Below, piece after piece: positions 33,585 to 48,060 of a DNA stretch of 64,000 bases; within the stretch, counting starts at the first letter, position 1, and every line of letters starts with the position of its first letter. The DNA comes from Armatimonadota bacterium. Lineage in GTDB: Bacteria; Sysuimicrobiota; Sysuimicrobiia; Sysuimicrobiales; Humicultoraceae. The notes below the pieces were generated by a model. It ran no database searches. It saw nothing but the letters and a program-made list of their open reading frames with translations, and was not told the origin of the DNA. Made by a program: the position numbers and the translations under genes. The DNA lies in NCBI GenBank assembly GCA_031459855.1, contig JAVKHP010000001.1:2563906-2627905 (forward strand), read 5' to 3'.

Positions 33585-34394
33585 GTGGCGGACGGGACGC
33601 TGCGCATCGCGGTGTGCGGCAAGGGCGGGGCTGGTAAGACCACCGTGGCCGGCACCCTCGCGCGGTTGCTCGCCCGGCGCGGGCGTCGGGTGCTGGCCAT
33701 CGACGGCGACTCCAACCCCAACCTCGCCATCACGCTGGGGATTCCTCCCGATCAGGCCGCGACGCTTCCGCCGCTGCCGCGCACGCTGGTGGAGGATCGC
33801 GTCGACGAGGACGGCACGGTGCGCCGCGTGCTGACGACGCCGGCTGCGGAGATCATCGCACGGTACGGTGTGCCGGCACCCGACGACGTCACGCTGGTGC
33901 TGATGGGGCGTGTGGATCATGCGGGGGCCGGGTGAATGTGCCGCACCCATGCTACCGTGCGTAGCCTCATCGGCGAGCTGGTCTCGGCAACGGACAGGAC
34001 GGTCGTTGCGGACATGGAGGCCGGGCTGGAACACCTCAGTCGCGGCACGCCCCGTCACGCCGACGCCATCGTGGCGGTCGTCGAGCCGTACTTCAAGTCG
34101 CTGGAGACCGGCCGGCGGGTGTACGACCTGGCGCAGGAGTTCGGTGGGACCCGGACGGGAGTGGTCGCCAACAAGATTCGCAGCCCTGAGGACGACGGCG
34201 CGGTGCGCGCCTTCTGCGCGCGACATGGCCTGCGCCTGCTCGGTGTGATTCCATTCGACGAGGTGTTCGTGGCTGCCGACCGGCGGGGACGGGCGCCGGT
34301 CGACCTCGATCCCGGCGCGGCCGGTATCGCGGCGATCGGACACCTGGCAGAGATCCTGGAAGACCTGTCGCGGGATCGACACGTGCGTGCCTGA
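33585..34394 (+). CDS. CooC-type nickel-insertion ATPase with in-frame UGA at the CXC motif (candidate selenoprotein)
   Basis: MinD/CooC-family P-loop ATPase of 269 residues if UGA is read through. The deviant Walker A GKGGAGKTT is at residues 12-20, the switch region starts at IDGDSNPN, and LVLMGRVDHAGAG precedes the UGA codon (33933-33935, residue 117), followed by MCRTHATVRSLIGELV and VVADMEAGLEHLSRGT. CooC proteins have Cys-x-Cys at this point, so UGA replaces the first Cys, giving U-M-C. The second half stays in frame and intact. The GTG start has GTGAGGAA upstream. Alternatives: a nonsense mutation (TGC/TGT to TGA), or two half-proteins by stop-restart, since ATG directly follows the UGA. 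In this operon it probably helps nickel insertion into the hydrogenase. Confidence 0.75.
33940..33974 (+). promoter_or_regulatory. SECIS-like hairpin downstream of the in-frame UGA
   Basis: Lower stem GCCG (33940-33943)/CGGC (33971-33974), internal loop, perfect upper stem GCTAC (33951-33955)/GTAGC (33961-33965) and apical loop CGTGC. The loop begins 20 bases after the UGA and has G at its second position followed by U, within the limits described for bacterial SECIS elements. A competing hairpin CGCAC/GTGCG (33942-33961) exists, so folding needs testing. Confidence 0.5.
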
Positions 34395-34427: not shown

Positions 34428-35711
34428 ATGTCGCACGCGGGAACCCACGTCCTGCCCGAACAGACGCTGGAATCGACCGCGCGTGCGACCCTGGAGCGGG
34501 AGCCGCGGCCGGCACCGCAGCGGGTCCCGTTCGGTCCCCTGCGCGTCGTGCACGCGTTCTGGCTGGCGGGAATGAGCTGCGACGGTTGCACCATCGCCGT
34601 CTCCGGTGCGACGAATCCCGGCGTCGAGGGGTTGCTGACGGGAACGATCCCCGGCCTGCCCAAGGTGCTGTTGCACCACCCGGTGCTCTCGGTGGAAGCG
34701 GGCGAGGAGTTCGTCCACAACTTCCGCCTAGCCGAGGAGGGCAAGCTCGGCGCGCCGTTCGTGGTGATCTTCGAGGGCTCGGTGCCCGACGAGCGCGTGG
34801 CCGCGGAAAGCGGCGGCTACTGGGCGGCGCTGGGGGTGGAGGAGCGCGACGGCGTGCGTCGCCCCATTCCCACCGCCGAGTGGCTGCAGCGCCTCGCGCC
34901 GCGTGCGGCGGCCGTCATCGCCATCGGGACCTGTGCCACCTGGGGAGGCATCCCCGCGGCGATCGGGAACCCGACGGGCGCCATGGGCGTCATGGACTTC
35001 CTCGGCAAGGAGTACCGCAGCGCGCTGGGCCTTCCGGTGATCAACATCCCGGGATGCTCGCCGGTGGGCGACAACTTCACGGAGACCGTGGCCGCCATCC
35101 TGCTGTTCCTCCAGGGGCTGGGGCCGCTACCCGAGTTCGACGAGCTCGGACGCCCCGCATGGCTCTTCAGCCAGACGGTGCACCAGCAGTGCGTACGGGC
35201 CGGGTACTACGAGGAGGGGAGTTTCGCCGAGCGCTACGGCGACAAGGAGTGCCTGGTCGAGATCGGCTGCTGGGGGCCCGTGGTGCAGTGCAACATCACC
35301 AGCCGTGGCGCCATCAACCACCTCGGCGGCTGCATGAACACCGGCGGCATCTGCATCGGCTGCACGATGCCCGGGTTCCCCGACCGGTTCACGCCGTTCT
35401 ACCAGACGCCCCCCGGGGCCGTGCTGTCGACCAAACCGGCGAAGATCACCGGCACGTTCGTACGCCCGCTACGCCGTCTGAGCATGCGGTTTCAGAACCG
35501 GGAGTTGCGCTGGGACGCCGCTGGCGGGGTACCGACCGGCTGGGGACACGTGAAGGAACCGTCGGCGCTGGAACGGGCGCTCCACGCCCTCTACGAGTGG
35601 TGGCAGTTTCGCACCGCAGAGCGCCCGGGCCGCACGCGGCCCGAGGAGCAGTACCCTGACGGCTACGAGGTGCCGGCCGTTGTCCGGGCGCGGCGGGAGG
35701 GGCGGTCGTGA
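34428..35711 (+). CDS. hhyS: [NiFe] hydrogenase small subunit, group 1h-like
   Basis: Iron-sulfur electron-transfer subunit, 427 aa. Proximal-cluster Cys51/Cys54 in GMSCDGC, with GTCATWGG and NIPGCSPVGDN supplying the rest; medial/distal ligands in VHQQCVRAGYYEEGSFAERY, IGCWGPVVQC and GGCMNTGGICIGCTMPGFPD. The pattern resembles the high-affinity, O2-tolerant group 1h (Hhy) enzymes. No twin-arginine signal, so the enzyme faces the cytoplasm. The ATG at 34428 (AAGGGGG upstream) is chosen over GTG 34398. Its stop overlaps the first of five small membrane-protein genes. Confidence 0.9.
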   Translation: MSHAGTHVLPEQTLESTARATLEREPRPAPQRVPFGPLRVVHAFWLAGMSCDGCTIAVSGATNPGVEGLLTGTIPGLPKVLLHHPVLSVEAGEEFVHNFRLAEEGKLGAPFVVIFEGSVPDERVAAESGGYWAALGVEERDGVRRPIPTAEWLQRLAPRAAAVIAIGTCATWGGIPAAIGNPTGAMGVMDFLGKEYRSALGLPVINIPGCSPVGDNFTETVAAILLFLQGLGPLPEFDELGRPAWLFSQTVHQQCVRAGYYEEGSFAERYGDKECLVEIGCWGPVVQCNITSRGAINHLGGCMNTGGICIGCTMPGFPDRFTPFYQTPPGAVLSTKPAKITGTFVRPLRRLSMRFQNRELRWDAAGGVPTGWGHVKEPSALERALHALYEWWQFRTAERPGRTRPEEQYPDGYEVPAVVRARREGRS

Positions 35712-36004
35712 CCGACGCCGAGCTGTTGAGCCGGTGGTACCTCTTCCTGGCCCTCGGTGGCGTCATCGTGGCCGTCGTGGCCCTCCTCCTGGCGGCGATC
35801 CTCATGACCGCCCGGCGCATCGAACGGGCCGCGAGCCGGTGCCTGACCGCCGTCCGGCAGGTCGCCGACCGCACGGCGGCCATCTGGGAGCTGGACTCCA
35901 CCAACGCGGTCGCCTGGGAGCTGCGGGAGGCCGCGCGAACGGTCCGGCAGCGGGCGGAGGAGATCGCGCAGGCGCTCCAGGCGCCCGCGGGTCCCCGCGT
36001 CTGA
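35708..36004 (+). CDS. Small single-TM protein 1 of 5 between hydrogenase subunits
   Basis: 98 aa, no family recognised. One hydrophobic helix (about residues 10-32, LFLALGGVIVAVVALLLAAI) is followed by basic TARRIERAA and then a charged helical tail with few helix breakers. Positive-inside predicts the tail is cytoplasmic, where the hydrogenase must sit. The GTG start overlaps the hhyS stop by 4 bases, so it is translationally coupled to the hydrogenase. Confidence 0.82.
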   Translation: MTDAELLSRWYLFLALGGVIVAVVALLLAAILMTARRIERAASRCLTAVRQVADRTAAIWELDSTNAVAWELREAARTVRQRAEEIAQALQAPAGPRV

Positions 36005-36016
36005 GGGAGGAGTGCG

Positions 36017-36322
36017 ATGGCGGTCGCCGCCAGCCAGCCCACCATCACCCTCGTGTGGAGCGTCTCGCTGCTGCTGGGGCTCGTCGTGCTGGTCGTGGTC
36101 GTGGCGCTGTTGCAGGCGATCCTGACGACCGTGCGCCGGGTGCACGACGTCGCGGGCACCCTCTGGACCGAGGGCCAGCGCCTGGCCAACAACACGGTGC
36201 ACGTGCCGCTGCTGGAGCGCACCACCCTGTTGCTGGAGGGCGTCGTCGCCGAGGCACGCGGACTCAGGGCGGCCACCGAGCGTATCAGGGAGGCGCTCGA
36301 GCGGACGGGAGGCCGTGCATGA
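36017..36322 (+). CDS. Small single-TM protein 2 of 5 between hydrogenase subunits
   Basis: 101 aa with the same plan: TM helix at about residues 12-34 (VSLLLGLVVLVVVVALLQAI), basic TVRRVHDVA, then a helical tail (LWTEGQRLANNTV..., TERIREALERTGGRA). GAGGGAGG precedes the ATG. It looks like a diverged paralogue of its neighbours rather than an enzyme. Its stop overlaps the third gene (ATGA). Confidence 0.82.
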   Translation: MAVAASQPTITLVWSVSLLLGLVVLVVVVALLQAILTTVRRVHDVAGTLWTEGQRLANNTVHVPLLERTTLLLEGVVAEARGLRAATERIREALERTGGRA

Positions 36323-36606
36323 TCGTCGGATGGACGCTCCTTGCGGCCCTCGGCGTCGCCACGCTGGCCGCGGTGCTCATCGGGTACCTGGTGGCACTGG
36401 TGGGCGTGCTCGACCGCCTTGGCGGCCAGCCGACGAGCCTTCTTGCCAGGATTCGCATGGGCGTGCGTGCCATCGAAGTGGAGACCGGCCACCTCCCGCT
36501 GCACGTGGAGCGGCTCAACGCTGGCGCGGCAGCGCTGCGACACGAGCTGCAGGCGGTGGCAGCCGCCCTGGCCGCGGCCGCGCATGCGGTGGGAGGGAGG
36601 CGCTGA
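36319..36606 (+). CDS. Small single-TM protein 3 of 5 between hydrogenase subunits
   Basis: 95 aa. TM helix at about residues 4-28 (WTLLAALGVATLAAVLIGYL), then LDRLGGQPTSLLARIRMGVRAIEVETGHL and an Ala-rich helical tail. It starts at ATG 36319 overlapping the previous stop and ends at 36606, overlapping the next start by one base. Likely subunit of the same membrane assembly as the other four. Confidence 0.8.
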   Translation: MIVGWTLLAALGVATLAAVLIGYLVALVGVLDRLGGQPTSLLARIRMGVRAIEVETGHLPLHVERLNAGAAALRHELQAVAAALAAAAHAVGGRR

Positions 36607-36908
36607 TGCCCCCGGCGGTGCTTTGGATCTGGTGGGCAACCCTGCTGGTGAGCGTGGGGATCGTCATCCCAACGGTGTGGTACCTGCTGCATCGGGTCCT
36701 GCGGGCGACGCACGCCATTGAGCGGTACGCGGCGGAGACGCTCCAGGCCGGGCTGGGCATCGCACGGCACGCGCAGGGGATCGCCGCGCTCGGCGTCACC
36801 ACGGACGTCGCGGCCGACCTGCTCCGAGTCACGCAAGAGGTGGCGCAGCACGCGGCCGTAGTGGAGCAGGCGCTGGGCCGCCAGAGGCTGGAGGGGGATC
36901 GGCCGTGA
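36606..36908 (+). CDS. Small single-TM protein 4 of 5 between hydrogenase subunits
   Basis: 100 aa. TM helix at about residues 4-27 (AVLWIWWATLLVSVGIVIPT) with an aromatic Trp cluster, then LLHRVLRATHAIERYAAETL and a helical tail ending QALGRQRLEGDRP. The basic/hydrophobic heptad-like tail suggests helix-helix packing. It overlaps the genes on both sides (TGATG and GTGA). Confidence 0.8.
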   Translation: MPPAVLWIWWATLLVSVGIVIPTVWYLLHRVLRATHAIERYAAETLQAGLGIARHAQGIAALGVTTDVAADLLRVTQEVAQHAAVVEQALGRQRLEGDRP

Positions 36909-37171
36909 CGCTGCTGGTCTGGGCAACCGGCCTGACCGCCGTGGCGCTGGTCGCCGTGCTGGCAGGGTACCTGCTGGCGGCGAGCGTGGCGCTGGTGCGG
37001 GCGCGCCGACACCTGGAGCGGCTGGCGGAGGGACTGGAGGCGATCGCCGCCGAGGTTCAGCCGCTGGGCGATCGCCTGCGCGCCGTCAACACCGTCGCAG
37101 CAGATCTCCTCACGGGCCTGCGCCAGGTCGACGAGCACCTGAGGGGCATCACCGTCGTGTTGCGATTGTAG
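36905..37171 (+). CDS. Small single-TM protein 5 of 5 between hydrogenase subunits
   Basis: 88 aa from GTG 36905. TM helix at about residues 3-27 (LVWATGLTAVALVAVLAGYL), basic RARRHLERLAEGLEAIAAEV, then an amphipathic tail (LRQVDEHLRGITVVLRL). Last of the five; 37 bases separate it from the large-subunit gene. The TM-plus-coiled-coil design recalls the membrane stalk subunit of mycobacterial Huc by architecture only; no sequence relationship is claimed. Confidence 0.8.
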   Translation: MTLLVWATGLTAVALVAVLAGYLLAASVALVRARRHLERLAEGLEAIAAEVQPLGDRLRAVNTVAADLLTGLRQVDEHLRGITVVLRL

Positions 37172-37208: not shown

Positions 37209-39086
37209 ATGTGCTTCAAGAACCTCCCCATCGAGTTCGACGCTCAGGGTCGCGCCCATCTGCGCGAGGACGTACGCAACCCCTACGGCTACGAAGCCCG
37301 GTCGCTGGCGACGGAGGAGGAGCGGATCGAGGAGCTGCTGCGGCGCAACGGGCACATTCGCTCTGTGGACTTCGACCCCGTAACCCGGGTCGCGGGGGCG
37401 CTGGCCTTTCACGCGGTCGTCGACCTCAACGCGCGGCGCGTCCTCGCCGCCAACTCCATGGCCACATTGTTCCGCGGGTACGAGGTCATCATGAAGGGCC
37501 GGGATCCTCGGGACGCGCTGTTCATCACCAGCCGGGCGTGCGGCGTCTGCGGTGGGGTCCATGCGACGACCTCGGCGCTCGCCATGGAGATGGCGTTCGG
37601 CATCGCGCCGCCGCCGCTGGGCATCGTGGTGCGCAACCTGCTGCTGGCGCTGGAGTTCCTCTACGACCACCCCCTGCACCTGTTCTTGCTGGCCGGACCC
37701 GACTACTCCCAGGCCATCGTCTCGGTCACCAACCCGGAGCTGTGGGAACGCGCCCAGCGCACCGAGGCGCCCCGGGCCGGCGTCCATGGTTACCGAACCG
37801 TGGGCGAGATGATGGTCGACCTGAACCCGCTCACGGGGAAGCTGTACCTGGAAGCGCTGCACATGACGCGGGTGGCGCGCGAAGCGTACGTGCTGATCGG
37901 CGCCAAGTACCCGCACCCCGAGACGGTGGTGCCCGGGGGGATGAGCGTCACCGTCACCCTGTCCACGTTCAACCAGATCTACGTGCGGTTGCAGCAGTTC
38001 TTCGACTATGCCAAGAAGGTGGCAGCGTTCTGGGACGACCTGGTGGAGTTCTTCTACGCCGCGGATCCCCGCTACCGGCAGCTGGGCGTGCGGCCGGCCA
38101 CCATGATCGACCCGGGCATCTGGGACGACCCCGAGGCCTACGACGCGACCTACGCCCGGTGCGATCAGTGGGGCGAGCGGCGCTGGGCGACTCCAGGCGT
38201 GGTCGTCGACGGGCAGGTCGTCACGACGAGCCTGCAGGCGCTCAACATCGGCCTGGAGGAGTTCGTCGAGCACGCCTACTACGAGCCGTGGAACGGGCAT
38301 CGGTTCCCGACCGACCTCGCCGGCAACCCGTTGAGCCCCTACCACCTGTGGAACCGGGAGACGAAGCCCAAACCGGTCGGGCAGAACTGGAAGGAGAAGT
38401 ACAGCTGGGCCGCGGCGCCGCGGTGGGACCGGCGGGTGATGGAGGCGGAGTGCACGACGCGCATGTGGATCACGGCAGCGGCACAGAAGCTGCCCAGCAG
38501 CGCCTTCATCGAACCCACCGGCAGCAGCCTGCGGTTGCGGATCCCGGCGGCAGCGATGCCCGAGATGGAACTTGAGTGGACGATCCCGACCGTGTGGAAC
38601 GCGTTCGAGCGTAACCGCGGCCGTGCCTACTGCATTGCGTACACCGCGATGGTGGCACTCGACAACTGGTTGCGCGGCATGCAGTACCTCAAGCAGGGCG
38701 AGACGCGTGTCAGCACACGCTTCGAGGTTCCGCGGCGGGGGCTGCGCATCGGCGTGGGCTTCTGGGGCGCCGGACGCGGCTACCTGACCCACCACCTGGT
38801 GCTGGAGAACGGCACCGTGGCCAACTACCAGATCCTAACACCGTCGACGTGGAACGCGTCACCCAAGGACCCCTGGGGGCGCGGAGGCCCCTACGAGGAG
38901 GCGGTGCTGAACACGCCGATCCTGGAGGCGTTCACCAGCCCCGACGAATACCGCGGCATCGACATCCTGCGGGTGATCCGCTCCTTCGACCCCTGCATGC
39001 CGTGCACGACACACGTCCACGTGGACGGGATGGACCGGGTGATCAGCCGGGAGGTCAACACTTGCGCCTGTGAGCTCGACGGGTGA
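37209..39086 (+). CDS. hhyL: [NiFe] hydrogenase large (catalytic) subunit, group 1h-like
   Basis: Catalytic subunit of 625 aa. L1 motif RACGVCGGVHA gives Cys111 and Cys114; L2 motif DPCMPCTTH gives Cys596 and Cys599, with predicted maturation cleavage after His602 removing a 23-residue tail (which itself contains CAC). The N-terminus CFKNLPIEFDAQGRAHL and overall sequence fit the group 1h/actinobacterial-type uptake hydrogenases that oxidise atmospheric H2. GGAGG lies upstream of the ATG. Both Ni ligands at L2 are Cys, so this is not a [NiFeSe] enzyme. Confidence 0.92.
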   Translation: MCFKNLPIEFDAQGRAHLREDVRNPYGYEARSLATEEERIEELLRRNGHIRSVDFDPVTRVAGALAFHAVVDLNARRVLAANSMATLFRGYEVIMKGRDPRDALFITSRACGVCGGVHATTSALAMEMAFGIAPPPLGIVVRNLLLALEFLYDHPLHLFLLAGPDYSQAIVSVTNPELWERAQRTEAPRAGVHGYRTVGEMMVDLNPLTGKLYLEALHMTRVAREAYVLIGAKYPHPETVVPGGMSVTVTLSTFNQIYVRLQQFFDYAKKVAAFWDDLVEFFYAADPRYRQLGVRPATMIDPGIWDDPEAYDATYARCDQWGERRWATPGVVVDGQVVTTSLQALNIGLEEFVEHAYYEPWNGHRFPTDLAGNPLSPYHLWNRETKPKPVGQNWKEKYSWAAAPRWDRRVMEAECTTRMWITAAAQKLPSSAFIEPTGSSLRLRIPAAAMPEMELEWTIPTVWNAFERNRGRAYCIAYTAMVALDNWLRGMQYLKQGETRVSTRFEVPRRGLRIGVGFWGAGRGYLTHHLVLENGTVANYQILTPSTWNASPKDPWGRGGPYEEAVLNTPILEAFTSPDEYRGIDILRVIRSFDPCMPCTTHVHVDGMDRVISREVNTCACELDG

Positions 39087-39945
39087 CGGCCTCGCATCTG
39101 CACCGCGGGTGCTGATCGGCGGCGTCGGCTACCGGTACACCCGCGACCTGGCGTTTGGGCCAGCGGTGGTGGATCGGTTGCGCGGCGAGATCTGGCCGCC
39201 CAACGTGGAGGTGGAGGACCTGTCCTACACGCCGGTGGCCATCGTCCAGCGGTGGCTGGAGACGCCCTGCGCCCGGTTGTTCCTGGTGGGGGCGCTGCCG
39301 CGCGGTGATCGCACACCGGGCGTCCTCGTGCGGTACGCGCCGACCGCGGTGTCCCCGCCGCCGGACGAGGTGCAGCGGCGAATCGGAGAGGCGCTGGGAG
39401 GCGTCATCAGCCTCGAGAACCTCGTGGTCGTCGCGCGGCACTTCGGAGTGCTCCTCCGCGACACCGAGGTCCTGGAACTCGAGCCCGTCGACATCGGGTG
39501 GGGCGAGGGGCTAAGTCCTCCGGCGGCGGCGGCCGTGGAGGTTGCCGTGGGCATCGTCCGGGATCTCGTGCCGGTCCACGACGCCGGACTCCTGCGGGCG
39601 CTGCACGAGCGCGACGAGATCCTGCAGATTCTCTACTGGCTCGAGGGCGAACGGCTGGTCGATACCGTCGCCGCGACGGACCTGCTGCCGTTTCTGCCAC
39701 TGCCCCCGCAGGTCATTGCGGCGCACTTGCGGGTCCTGGGGCGCCAGGGCTACGTCGACCGTGTGCCGGACGCCGGGGACCGGTATCGGTTGACGGCCGC
39801 GGGCCGGCGGGAAGGCGGCCGACGATTCGCCGAGGAGTTCGCGCCGCTGCTGCGCCAGGGCCACGGCGAGTGCAACGATCCGGCCTGTGACTGTCATCGC
39901 ACCGGTGACCCCACCCGGTGCCCGGCTCACCAGCGCACCGGATGA
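39070..39945 (+). CDS. Hydrogenase-associated fusion: inactive HyaD-like domain + winged helix + Cys/His tail
   Basis: 291 aa. Residues about 13-150 resemble the hydrogenase maturation protease fold (VLIGGVGYRYTRDLAFGPAVVD, LFLVGALPRG), but the metal-binding Asp expected in the VDAI position is Gly, so protease activity is doubtful. Residues about 180-255 read as a winged helix (HERDEILQILYWLEGERL, LRVLGRQGYVDRV, RYRLTAAGRR). The end carries CNDPACDCH...RCPAH, a probable metal site. The GTG start overlaps hhyL by 17 bases. It could be a nickel-responsive or maturation-checking factor (inference). Confidence 0.7.
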   Translation: MSSTGDGLASAPRVLIGGVGYRYTRDLAFGPAVVDRLRGEIWPPNVEVEDLSYTPVAIVQRWLETPCARLFLVGALPRGDRTPGVLVRYAPTAVSPPPDEVQRRIGEALGGVISLENLVVVARHFGVLLRDTEVLELEPVDIGWGEGLSPPAAAAVEVAVGIVRDLVPVHDAGLLRALHERDEILQILYWLEGERLVDTVAATDLLPFLPLPPQVIAAHLRVLGRQGYVDRVPDAGDRYRLTAAGRREGGRRFAEEFAPLLRQGHGECNDPACDCHRTGDPTRCPAHQRTG

Positions 39946-40487
39946 CACGCCGCGCCCTCATCGCCTGCATGGGCAACGTCCTGCGGGCGGACGATGGCTT
40001 CGGCATTGCGGTGGCGCGGGCGCTGCGAGGCCATGCAGCGCTGCCCGCCGACGTGCGCGTCAGCGAGGTCGGCATCGGAGGGATCCCGCTGGTGCACGAC
40101 TTGATGGAAGGCTACGACCTGGTGGTGGTAGTGGACGCCATCCAGCGCGGCAGGCCGCCGGGCACGGTCGTGGTGCTCACCCCGCAGGTGCCCGACCTGC
40201 GCGGCACGGACTGGGGGGCCGTGGCCGGGCGTCTGGGAGACCCTCATACCACGACGCCAGGGCGTGCGCTGCTGCTGGCCCGGGCGCTGGGCGTGCTTCC
40301 CAAGGCGGTAGCGATCGTCGGCTGCGAGCCTGCGGACGTCGAGAGCGTGCGGATCGGCCTGACGCCGGCCGTGGCGGCCGCCGTGGCTCGCGCCGCAGAC
40401 GAGGTCGTGGCGCTGGTGCGGCGGTGGCGGCAGGCAGGCATGCTGGTCGCGGGCGACGCGACGCCGACCGCGGTGCGACTTCTCTGA
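39942..40487 (+). CDS. Hydrogenase maturation protease (HyaD/HybD family)
   Basis: Endopeptidase that clips the C-terminal tail of the large subunit after nickel insertion. GNVLRADDGFG provides Asp18, VVVVDAIQRG Asp65 and DPHTTTPGRAL His102, matching the three nickel-sensing residues of HybD. 181 aa is standard. The ATG at 39942 overlaps the previous stop. Its target would be the site after His602 of the large subunit. Confidence 0.92.
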   Translation: MTRRALIACMGNVLRADDGFGIAVARALRGHAALPADVRVSEVGIGGIPLVHDLMEGYDLVVVVDAIQRGRPPGTVVVLTPQVPDLRGTDWGAVAGRLGDPHTTTPGRALLLARALGVLPKAVAIVGCEPADVESVRIGLTPAVAAAVARAADEVVALVRRWRQAGMLVAGDATPTAVRLL

Positions 40488-45807: not shown

Positions 45808-48060
45808 ATGGGGCACGCAGCATATCGTGGGGCACGCGTCAAGCGGCTGGAAGACCCGCGGCTGGTCACCGGCCGCGGGACGTTCACCGGGGACCTCTCC
45901 GCGCAGGGGCTGCGGTATGTGGCGATCGTACGCAGTCCTCTGGCGCATGCGCGCGTACGCGGCATCCGCGCGCCGGCGGGCGTCGAGCTTGTAACGGCGC
46001 GTGACCTCCCCGACCTGCCTCCTCTGTCCGGGGAGATTAAGGGCGGCGCGGTGGTGCCACACCCGGTGCTGGCCATCGACCGGGTGTGCTACGTGGGGCA
46101 ACCGGTTGCCGCCGTGGTGGCCGACGGTCCGTATGCGGCCGCCGACGCCGCCGAGCGCGTCGAGGTCGACTACGATCCGCTCCCGGTGGTGGCCGACCCG
46201 GAGGACGCGCTGGCTCCGGGCGCGATGGTCATCCACGAGGGCCTTGCGTCCAACGTGGCCTACCGCCGTCATCGGCGCTACGGCGATCCCGACGCGGCGT
46301 TCGCCCGCGCGCCGGTGGTGCTCCAGCAGCGCATCGCCCACCAGCGCCTGGCTGCGGTCCCGCTGGAACCGCGCGCGGTGCTGGCGGTGCCGCCATCGGG
46401 GCGTCGGGGACGACACCTCGTGGTGTGGTCGTCCACCCAGATGCCCCACGACCTCCACGCGCTGCTGGAGGCGTTGCCCCAGCTGGCCGGGCTGCGCATC
46501 CGGGTCGTGGCACCCGACGTGGGCGGCGGGTTCGGTGCGAAGATCAACATCTACCCCGAGGAACTGCTGCTGCCGGTGCTGGCCGTCCGCCTGGGACGCA
46601 CTCTGAAGTGGGTGCAGACGCGCCGGGAGGACTTGCTGGCCACCAGCCACGGCCGGGCGCAGGCCGCCGACGTCGCGCTGGCCGCGGACCGCGACGGGCG
46701 CATCCGCGGGCTGCGGCTGCGGATCGTCGCCGACGTCGGCGCCTACCTGCTGTCCACCACCGCCGACGTCCCGACCCTCACGACCCGCATGGCAACAGGA
46801 CCCTACGAGATCACGGACGTCGAGGTCGAGCTGGTGGAAGTGTACACCAACCACATGCCCACCGGCGCCTACCGGGGCGCCGGGCGCCCGGAGGCTGCGT
46901 TCTACCTCGAACGCATGCTCGATCTGCTGGCGCGTGAGATCGGGACCGATCCCGCCGAGGTCCGCCGGCGCAACTTCATACCCCCCGAACGCTTCCCCTA
47001 CCGCACCCCCGCAGGCTATCTCTACGACAGCGGCGCCTACGCCCGTGCCCTCGACCGCGCGCTGGAGGTCGTCGACTACGCGGGGTGGCGGCGGCGGCAG
47101 GCTGAGGGCCGGCAGCAGGGCCGCTACCTCGGCATCGGGCTTGGCAGCTACGTGGAGTGGTGCACCTACGGCGAGGATCGCGTGCGCGTGCAGGTGGACA
47201 CCGCCGGCAGGGTGACGGTGCTGACCGGGATCTCGCCGCACGGGCAGGGGACGGCCACCGGCCTCGCTCAGGTGGTGGCCGACGTGCTGGGCGTGCCCCT
47301 GGACACCGTGACGGTCGTGCATGGGGACACCGCGCGGATCCCCACGGGCGAGGGCACGGCCGGCAGCCGGTCGTTGGTGGTGGGCGGCACCGCCGCCTAC
47401 CGGGCGTCGGAACGCCTGCGCCGCAGGCTGGTGGCCCTGGCGGCCGCGCAGCTGGAGGCCCGCCCCGAGGACCTGGTGCTGGCCGAGGGCCGGGTCTTCG
47501 TGGCGGGCACCCCCGAGCGCGGCGTGACGCTCGGTGCCCTGGTCGCCCGCACAGGCCGGCGCATGCTGTGGGCACGCGCGACGTTCGACGCCGGCGACGC
47601 CACGTTCCCGTTCGGTACGCATGTGGCCGTCGTGGAAGTGGATCCCGAGACCGGCCAGGTGTCCCTGCGCGCGTACGTGGCGGTCGACGACTGCGGCGTG
47701 GCGATCAACCCGCTGCTGGTGGAAGGACAGATCCACGGCGGGGTCACGCAGGGCCTGGCCCAGGCCCTCTACGAGCAGATCGTCTACGACCGCCAGGGGC
47801 AGCTCGTAACGGCGACCCTGGCCGACTACGCCGTGCCGCGGGCACCGCAGCTGCCGCGCTTCCAGGCGCACCGTACCGAAACGCCCACGCCGCGCAACCC
47901 GCTGGGGGCCAAGGGCGTGGGGGAGGCCGGCACGATCGGCGCCACCCCGACCGTGGTCAACGCGGTGCTGGACGCCCTCGCGCCCTTTGGCGTGCGCCAC
48001 CTCGACATGCCGCTGTGGCCGGGCAAGATCTGGCGGGCGATCCACGCGCGTCGCGCGTAG
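45808..48060 (+). CDS. Xanthine dehydrogenase/CoxL-family molybdopterin-binding subunit (form II type)
   Basis: 750 aa molybdenum-hydroxylase catalytic subunit. The start KRLEDPRLVTGRGTFTGDL, the Mo-site loop AYRGAGRPEA (form II; the form I CO dehydrogenase signature AYxCSFR is absent), GGGFGAK, and the catalytic Glu region GAKGVGEAGTIGA are intact. No FAD-binding or 2Fe-2S subunit genes adjoin it, so its redox partners are elsewhere. It starts 4 bases after the permease gene and may be read from the hydrogenase operon transcript. Substrate unknown. Confidence 0.88.
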   Translation: MGHAAYRGARVKRLEDPRLVTGRGTFTGDLSAQGLRYVAIVRSPLAHARVRGIRAPAGVELVTARDLPDLPPLSGEIKGGAVVPHPVLAIDRVCYVGQPVAAVVADGPYAAADAAERVEVDYDPLPVVADPEDALAPGAMVIHEGLASNVAYRRHRRYGDPDAAFARAPVVLQQRIAHQRLAAVPLEPRAVLAVPPSGRRGRHLVVWSSTQMPHDLHALLEALPQLAGLRIRVVAPDVGGGFGAKINIYPEELLLPVLAVRLGRTLKWVQTRREDLLATSHGRAQAADVALAADRDGRIRGLRLRIVADVGAYLLSTTADVPTLTTRMATGPYEITDVEVELVEVYTNHMPTGAYRGAGRPEAAFYLERMLDLLAREIGTDPAEVRRRNFIPPERFPYRTPAGYLYDSGAYARALDRALEVVDYAGWRRRQAEGRQQGRYLGIGLGSYVEWCTYGEDRVRVQVDTAGRVTVLTGISPHGQGTATGLAQVVADVLGVPLDTVTVVHGDTARIPTGEGTAGSRSLVVGGTAAYRASERLRRRLVALAAAQLEARPEDLVLAEGRVFVAGTPERGVTLGALVARTGRRMLWARATFDAGDATFPFGTHVAVVEVDPETGQVSLRAYVAVDDCGVAINPLLVEGQIHGGVTQGLAQALYEQIVYDRQGQLVTATLADYAVPRAPQLPRFQAHRTETPTPRNPLGAKGVGEAGTIGATPTVVNAVLDALAPFGVRHLDMPLWPGKIWRAIHARRA

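Follow-up and report, generated by a model that had tools for sequence, protein, structure and literature searches.

The window, by which we mean the whole 64,000-nucleotide stretch of DNA that was analysed, carries a [NiFe]-hydrogenase locus whose genes, as given here, all lie on the + strand. The small-subunit gene hylS (hhyS; 34428 to 35711), whose product has no Tat motif by inspection, is separated from the large-subunit gene hylL (hhyL; 37209 to 39086) by five open reading frames of 88 to 101 aa that span 35708 to 37171: hylTM1 (35708 to 36004), hylTM2 (36017 to 36322), hylTM3 (36319 to 36606), hylTM4 (36606 to 36908), and hylTM5 (36905 to 37171). The start of hylTM1 overlaps the hhyS stop by 4 nt, hylTM1 and hylTM2 are 12 nt apart, and the remaining TM neighbors overlap by 1 or 4 nt; Shine-Dalgarno-like purine-rich stretches accompany these genes. 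An earlier note on this DNA had described five small genes here, overlapping or nearly so, which the open reading frame positions bear out, and had called the hydrogenase signal-less, which agrees with our inspection, where no signal sequence was found. Upstream lies a gene for a CooC-type (MinD/CbiA-like) ATPase (33585 to 34394) with an in-frame TGA at 33933 to 33935. Downstream are genes for a hydrogenase maturation protease-like protein (TIGR00072; 39070 to 39945) and a HycI/HupD-type hydrogenase maturation protease (39918 to 40487). An Rfam search across the locus gave no match above the cut-off. We note that a molybdenum hydroxylase large subunit with AYRGAGR, a form II-like CO dehydrogenase (CODH) motif, is encoded about 7 kb from the hydrogenase (45808 to 48060); no HylTM cassette was noticed at this gene.

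The best solved matches of HhyS and HhyL were HofK and HofG of the group 1h enzyme 5AA5 (Cupriavidus, actinobacterial-type). We scanned for hydrogenase loci using one genome per species, which gave 80 loci, and built a HylL tree of 85 rows (81 distinct) that includes four group 1h references from Streptomyces, Mycobacterium, Cupriavidus, and Methylocystis. The window HylL clusters with Hymenobacter roseosalivarius and 79 others, and a very long branch parts this clade from the four references. Its members come from Chloroflexota, Thermomicrobiota, Gemmatimonadota, Bacteroidota, Pseudomonadota, Rubrobacteraceae, Acidobacteriota, and SAR324. The group 1l [NiFe]-hydrogenase (Hyl) locus is reported to carry five interposed TM proteins, HylTM1-5 (PMC9561532), and the window's hydrogenase and its five genes are almost certainly a group 1l enzyme with hylTM1-5. 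Because the hydrogenase belongs to this group, the five-TM set has already been described, and the proposal of an undescribed hydrogenase membrane module has to be given up. Two cultured marine strains with group 1l did not substantially consume H2 (PMC10305171). The window's genome contains three heme-copper oxidase genes.

In 52 of the 85 rows of the HylL tree, window included, the TM genes number exactly five and keep one order. The search for the same gene order in other genomes that the earlier note had proposed thus returned 51 further loci from many phyla, and we rejected the possibility that the cassette is unique to the window's locus. Smaller interposed sets comprise four TM genes (3/85 loci) or two (2/85). 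At 11/85 loci, mostly from Acidobacteriota with some from Chloroflexota, three or four TM genes lie upstream of the small subunit; the cassette has evidently moved within the locus, being upstream in some genomes and between the subunits in others. Contig ends interrupt a further 13/85 loci. None of the four group 1h references has TM genes at its locus, and in all four the small-subunit gene directly neighbors the large-subunit gene. The view that hhyS and hhyL are normally neighbors therefore holds for the group 1h references and fails for group 1l, where interposition is the rule. Conservation of the five genes goes far beyond chance. Distances of the TM proteins correlate only moderately with those of HylS/HylL (0.31 to 0.52), which counts against the anchor proposed below.

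Across the 52 five-gene loci, nearly all members of each TM family have one hydrophobic segment, which begins at a median residue of 3 to 13 depending on the family. Lysine plus arginine counts were 0.06 to 0.38 in the 15 residues before this segment versus 1.4 to 3.0 in the 15 residues after it. Because the counts are so much higher after the segment than before, an N-out/C-in topology is predicted to hold, in line with the positive-inside argument by which the earlier note had placed the tails in the cytoplasm. HylTM4 is predicted to be a single continuous helix from residue 3 to 97 (pLDDT 89), and in each of the five families the tails are more amphipathic than permuted sequences. The plan attributed to each of the five, an N-terminal TM helix, a basic patch, and a helical tail, is therefore well founded. 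Searches of known domain families gave only sub-threshold Pfam matches, for TM1, TM2, and TM5 (DUF948, DUF805). No cofactor or quinone-binding motif is recognisable in the window's five TM proteins, so direct electron transfer through them seems unlikely.

Profile-profile comparison sorts the five families into two paralogue classes. Class A comprises TM1, TM2, and TM4, joined at 98.7 to 98.9%, and class B comprises TM3 and TM5, joined at 98.7%, while links from A to B are weaker (3% to 94%), with the reservation that such scores may be inflated by low-identity single-TM/coil proteins. Class profiles, trained on five-gene loci alone, read A-A-B-A-B in 52/52 five-gene loci. For loci outside the training set they read ABAB in 10/10 complete upstream sets and in 2/3 four-gene interposed sets (the third, L080, was ambiguous), and AB in 2/2 two-gene interposed sets. 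Because the smaller sets are AB and ABAB, the basic unit seems to be an A-B pair that has undergone duplications. We note that A-B-A-B lies upstream of the small subunit gene in L064, L070, L087, L091, L093, L097, L098, L105, L107, and L109. Two paralogue classes in the fixed order A-A-B-A-B are, as a computational result, new; the available part of PMC9561532 mentions neither A/B classes, nor the small-subunit extension, nor the CODH link described below.

HylS of the window extends past its VPTGWG motif (SALERALHALYEWWQF), with a predicted helix at residues 380 to 393. In all representatives compared, TM-bearing small subunits run past a VPSGWG-like motif into a helix-containing extension. 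A FYekmQf-like helix in this extension is found at TM-bearing loci and is absent from the four TM-less 1h enzymes. Measured from a fixed point in complete rows, the TM-bearing subunits continue for at least 90 residues versus 70 to 79 in the four 1h references; in L133, an actinobacterial locus with TM genes, the small subunit ends sooner, possibly through a frameshift. An AlphaFold monomer of HhyS was poor overall (mean pLDDT 62), and of this model we used only the extension helix at 380 to 393, which was predicted with moderate confidence. That TM-bearing small subunits have a C-terminal extension lacking in four 1h enzymes is a further new, computational observation, and we infer that this extension may be the docking site for the TM proteins.

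We searched whole genomes with the class-A profiles. The hydrogenase cassette was the sole match in the window's genome, and the genomes of 60 relatives gave nothing convincing, with one match at E=9.9e-4. Each of 22 Hyl genomes had 1 to 3 class-A matches, together on one contig, and no stand-alone class-A copies were found in these 22. Exclusivity of class A to hydrogenases, which held in the Hyl genomes and the relatives, failed in Actinomycetota. There, 17 of 199 genomes had class-A matches, nine of them hydrogenase-linked, the link resting on the locus or, in the two genomes G186 and G262, on strong HylTM2 matches of Hyl type. Every one of the other eight has a gene for a close form I CoxL, versus 34/199 genomes overall. 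The cassette directly adjoins coxL with AYRCSFR in G179 (L149), G202 (L146), G255 (L147), and G266 (L145); in G210 it lies about 8 kb from coxL on one contig, and in G234, G277, and G299 cassette and coxL are on different stretches. The gene order of L146 is coxM-coxS-coxL-XdhC-XdhC-CoxG-cassette. In L145, L146, L147, and L149 the cassettes are A-B-A-A-B, which is 3A+2B as in Hyl, permuted. By profile comparison, CODH-linked A proteins match HylTM1/2/4 at 97 to 98%, and CODH-linked B proteins match TM5/TM3 at 97 to 98%.

Further cassettes were seen in L144 (HylTM-like, A-B-A-A-B, on a short contig without a cox gene) and L150 (A-A-B-A-B, with cox about 8 kb away). Longer class A/B-like proteins with INxTA-type helical repeats adjoin the actinobacterial cassettes (L137:6681-8872, L144:2752-4865, L146:7358-9427, and L150:16986-19659), in the order A-B-A where read.

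The literature searched, which gives partial coverage, yielded no HylTM-CODH link, and 3A+2B homologues adjoining form I CODH in four Actinomycetota genomes are, computationally, a new finding. Homologues in unrelated contexts had been named as grounds against an anchor. The cassette is indeed not confined to hydrogenases in Actinomycetota; the CODH context is, however, functionally related, which argues for a general trace-gas adaptor. These loci suggest a membrane-docking device common to Hyl and form I CODH.

The CooC-type gene upstream of hylS has a feature of its own. Its TGA at 33933 replaces the first Cys of a CxC motif, and across the window and related loci the codon at this site is TGA in 26/57 and Cys in 31/57, with none other. 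The TGA places are the window, L031, L035, L038, L040-L042, L044, L050, L053, L056, L058, L061, L064, L068, L070-L073, L078, L093, L096, L097, L105, L107, and L109. A bSECIS-like 5-bp stem with GU in the loop lies about 23 nt downstream of the TGA. Pairing is found in 84 to 96% of TGA loci versus 21 to 55% of Cys loci at four of the five stem positions, the loop-closing pair being common in both groups (93% in Cys loci). Folding energy relative to synonymous recoding gave z of -1.69 for TGA loci and -0.55 for Cys loci. The window's genome encodes selA (549 bits) and tRNA-Sec (66 bits), and 20/23 of the TGA genomes have selA, compared with 3/26 of the Cys genomes (Fisher p 8.6e-8, without correction for phylogeny). 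CooC is not mentioned in a review from 2026 that covers 119 prokaryotic selenoprotein families. On this evidence the CooC-type ATPase is probably a new selenoprotein family and, as such a candidate, may matter more than the TM cassette. If CooC carries Sec, standard annotation splits a maturation gene in two, and selenium supply would be tied to atmospheric H2 oxidation through maturation of air-hydrogen hydrogenases.

We observed in-frame UGA in other genes as well. In three Rubrobacteraceae, the middle Cys of the HylTM2 CPGCPxC motif is UGA (L058:4253, L061:9061, and L078:9051), and in each it is followed by a perfect hairpin of 6 bp with GGUC as the loop. One TGA falls within the HylTM2 match in the Actinomycetota genomes G186 and G262. 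The window's genome also encodes a second [NiFe]-hydrogenase large subunit (L121:3362-5071; G000:C1:808861-810567), in which UGA replaces both Cys of the L1 motif (RI-U-GV-U) and a 6-bp hairpin lies downstream, its CGUGC loop identical to that of CooC. For this large subunit, none of 42 other genomes from the phylum gave a relative at E<=1e-40.

We propose that the five TM helices and their cytoplasmic tails would form a hetero-oligomer that serves as membrane base and stalk, that the tails or the bundle would bind cytoplasmic HylSL via the HylS C-terminal extension, and that HylSL would thereby be kept at the membrane, giving electrons from H2 a path to the quinone pool. In some Actinomycetota, this device, again as 3A+2B, appears to serve form I CODH. 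We consider it fairly likely that HylTM is such a hetero-oligomeric anchor or stalk, docking a soluble trace-gas oxidoreductase at the quinone pool. The earlier note had put forward a five-protein anchor of this kind; the architecture, the linkage in 22 genomes, and the tracking of the HylS extension by the cassette speak for it, and contact with the enzyme is what we infer from them. The hydrogenase might instead be attached to the membrane by an unrelated protein. Alternatively, the TM proteins may help to assemble, insert, or quality-control the hydrogenase (and CODH) at the membrane while staying outside the working complex. The operon does contain maturation genes (the CooC-like ATPase and maturation proteases), and the window's TM proteins are without cofactor sites. 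However, the TM genes lie between structural subunits with overlaps of 1 to 4 nt, their presence tracks an extension on the mature small subunit, and five related proteins in a fixed class order resemble stoichiometric parts, so we regard a role in assembly as unlikely.

We weighed two further explanations. The TM proteins could form a scaffold or microdomain that gathers trace-gas enzymes near respiratory complexes with no enzyme-specific stalk, as the weak DUF948-type similarity and the occurrence of the module beside both Hyl and form I CODH, which are unrelated enzymes, might suggest. Set against this are the occurrence of one enzyme per locus in tight operon linkage, the lack of stand-alone copies in the Hyl genomes searched, and the HylS extension, which suggests direct docking; we find such a scaffold quite improbable. 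An electron conduit, in which a metal or Fe-S centre held by CPGCPxC of HylTM2 relays HylS electrons to quinone, is very unlikely. Most HylTM2 proteins conserve the motif, and UGA for its middle Cys in three Rubrobacteraceae loci is typical of redox or metal sites, but the motif is absent from the window, from many of its nearest relatives, and from A-B and A-B-A-B sets. Because of these absences, CPGCPxC is not a general mechanism, and it probably matters where present.

An anchor or stalk thus remains our preferred reading. In its broader form, towards which we lean on balance, HylTM1-5 would be one case of a general [AAB]+[AB] docking module for Hyl and form I CODH, and CooC would be an unlisted Sec-x-Cys selenoprotein. 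The HylTM set bears on the question of how high-affinity hydrogenases that have no signal sequence get to the membrane: for the Methylacidiphilum group 1h enzyme, membrane association appears necessary for high affinity, with an unknown partner (PMC7174314). A two-class, fixed-order TM set common to H2 and CO oxidisers offers a specific candidate that can be tested, in which the HylS extension would be where the enzyme docks.

The window follows the Hyl arrangement of small subunit, five short TM proteins, and large subunit (PMC9561532), and departs from most Hyl in that its HylTM2 lacks the C-terminal CPGCPxC typical of relatives. The group 1h enzymes of Streptomyces, Mycobacterium, Cupriavidus (HofKG, 5AA5), and Methylocystis have homologous catalytic subunits, as in Hyl; unlike the window, they have adjacent subunit genes, no HylTM homologue nearby, and no small-subunit extension. 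With Huc (PMC10017518), HylTM shares the idea of an amphipathic helical stalk, a cytoplasmic hydrogenase, and a quinone acceptor, which for HylTM are predicted. HucM, however, is one 188-residue protein that forms a tetrameric hydrophobic tube linking the enzyme to the membrane, with peripheral membrane contact (PMC10017518), whereas HylTM comprises five single-TM proteins. Homology to the Huc stalk is not supported, as Huc chains are absent from PDB matches of the TM2 and TM4 profiles and of TM5 at E up to 1; the likeness drawn in the earlier note thus stands as an architectural analogy and, for the three proteins searched, not as sequence homology. Form I [MoCu]-CO dehydrogenase differs from Hyl in its catalytic enzyme, yet four Actinomycetota cox loci carry A-B-A-A-B. 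CoxG, the proposed membrane/quinone partner of form I CO dehydrogenase (PMC13240472), is also present beside the cassette in L146, the cox locus checked.
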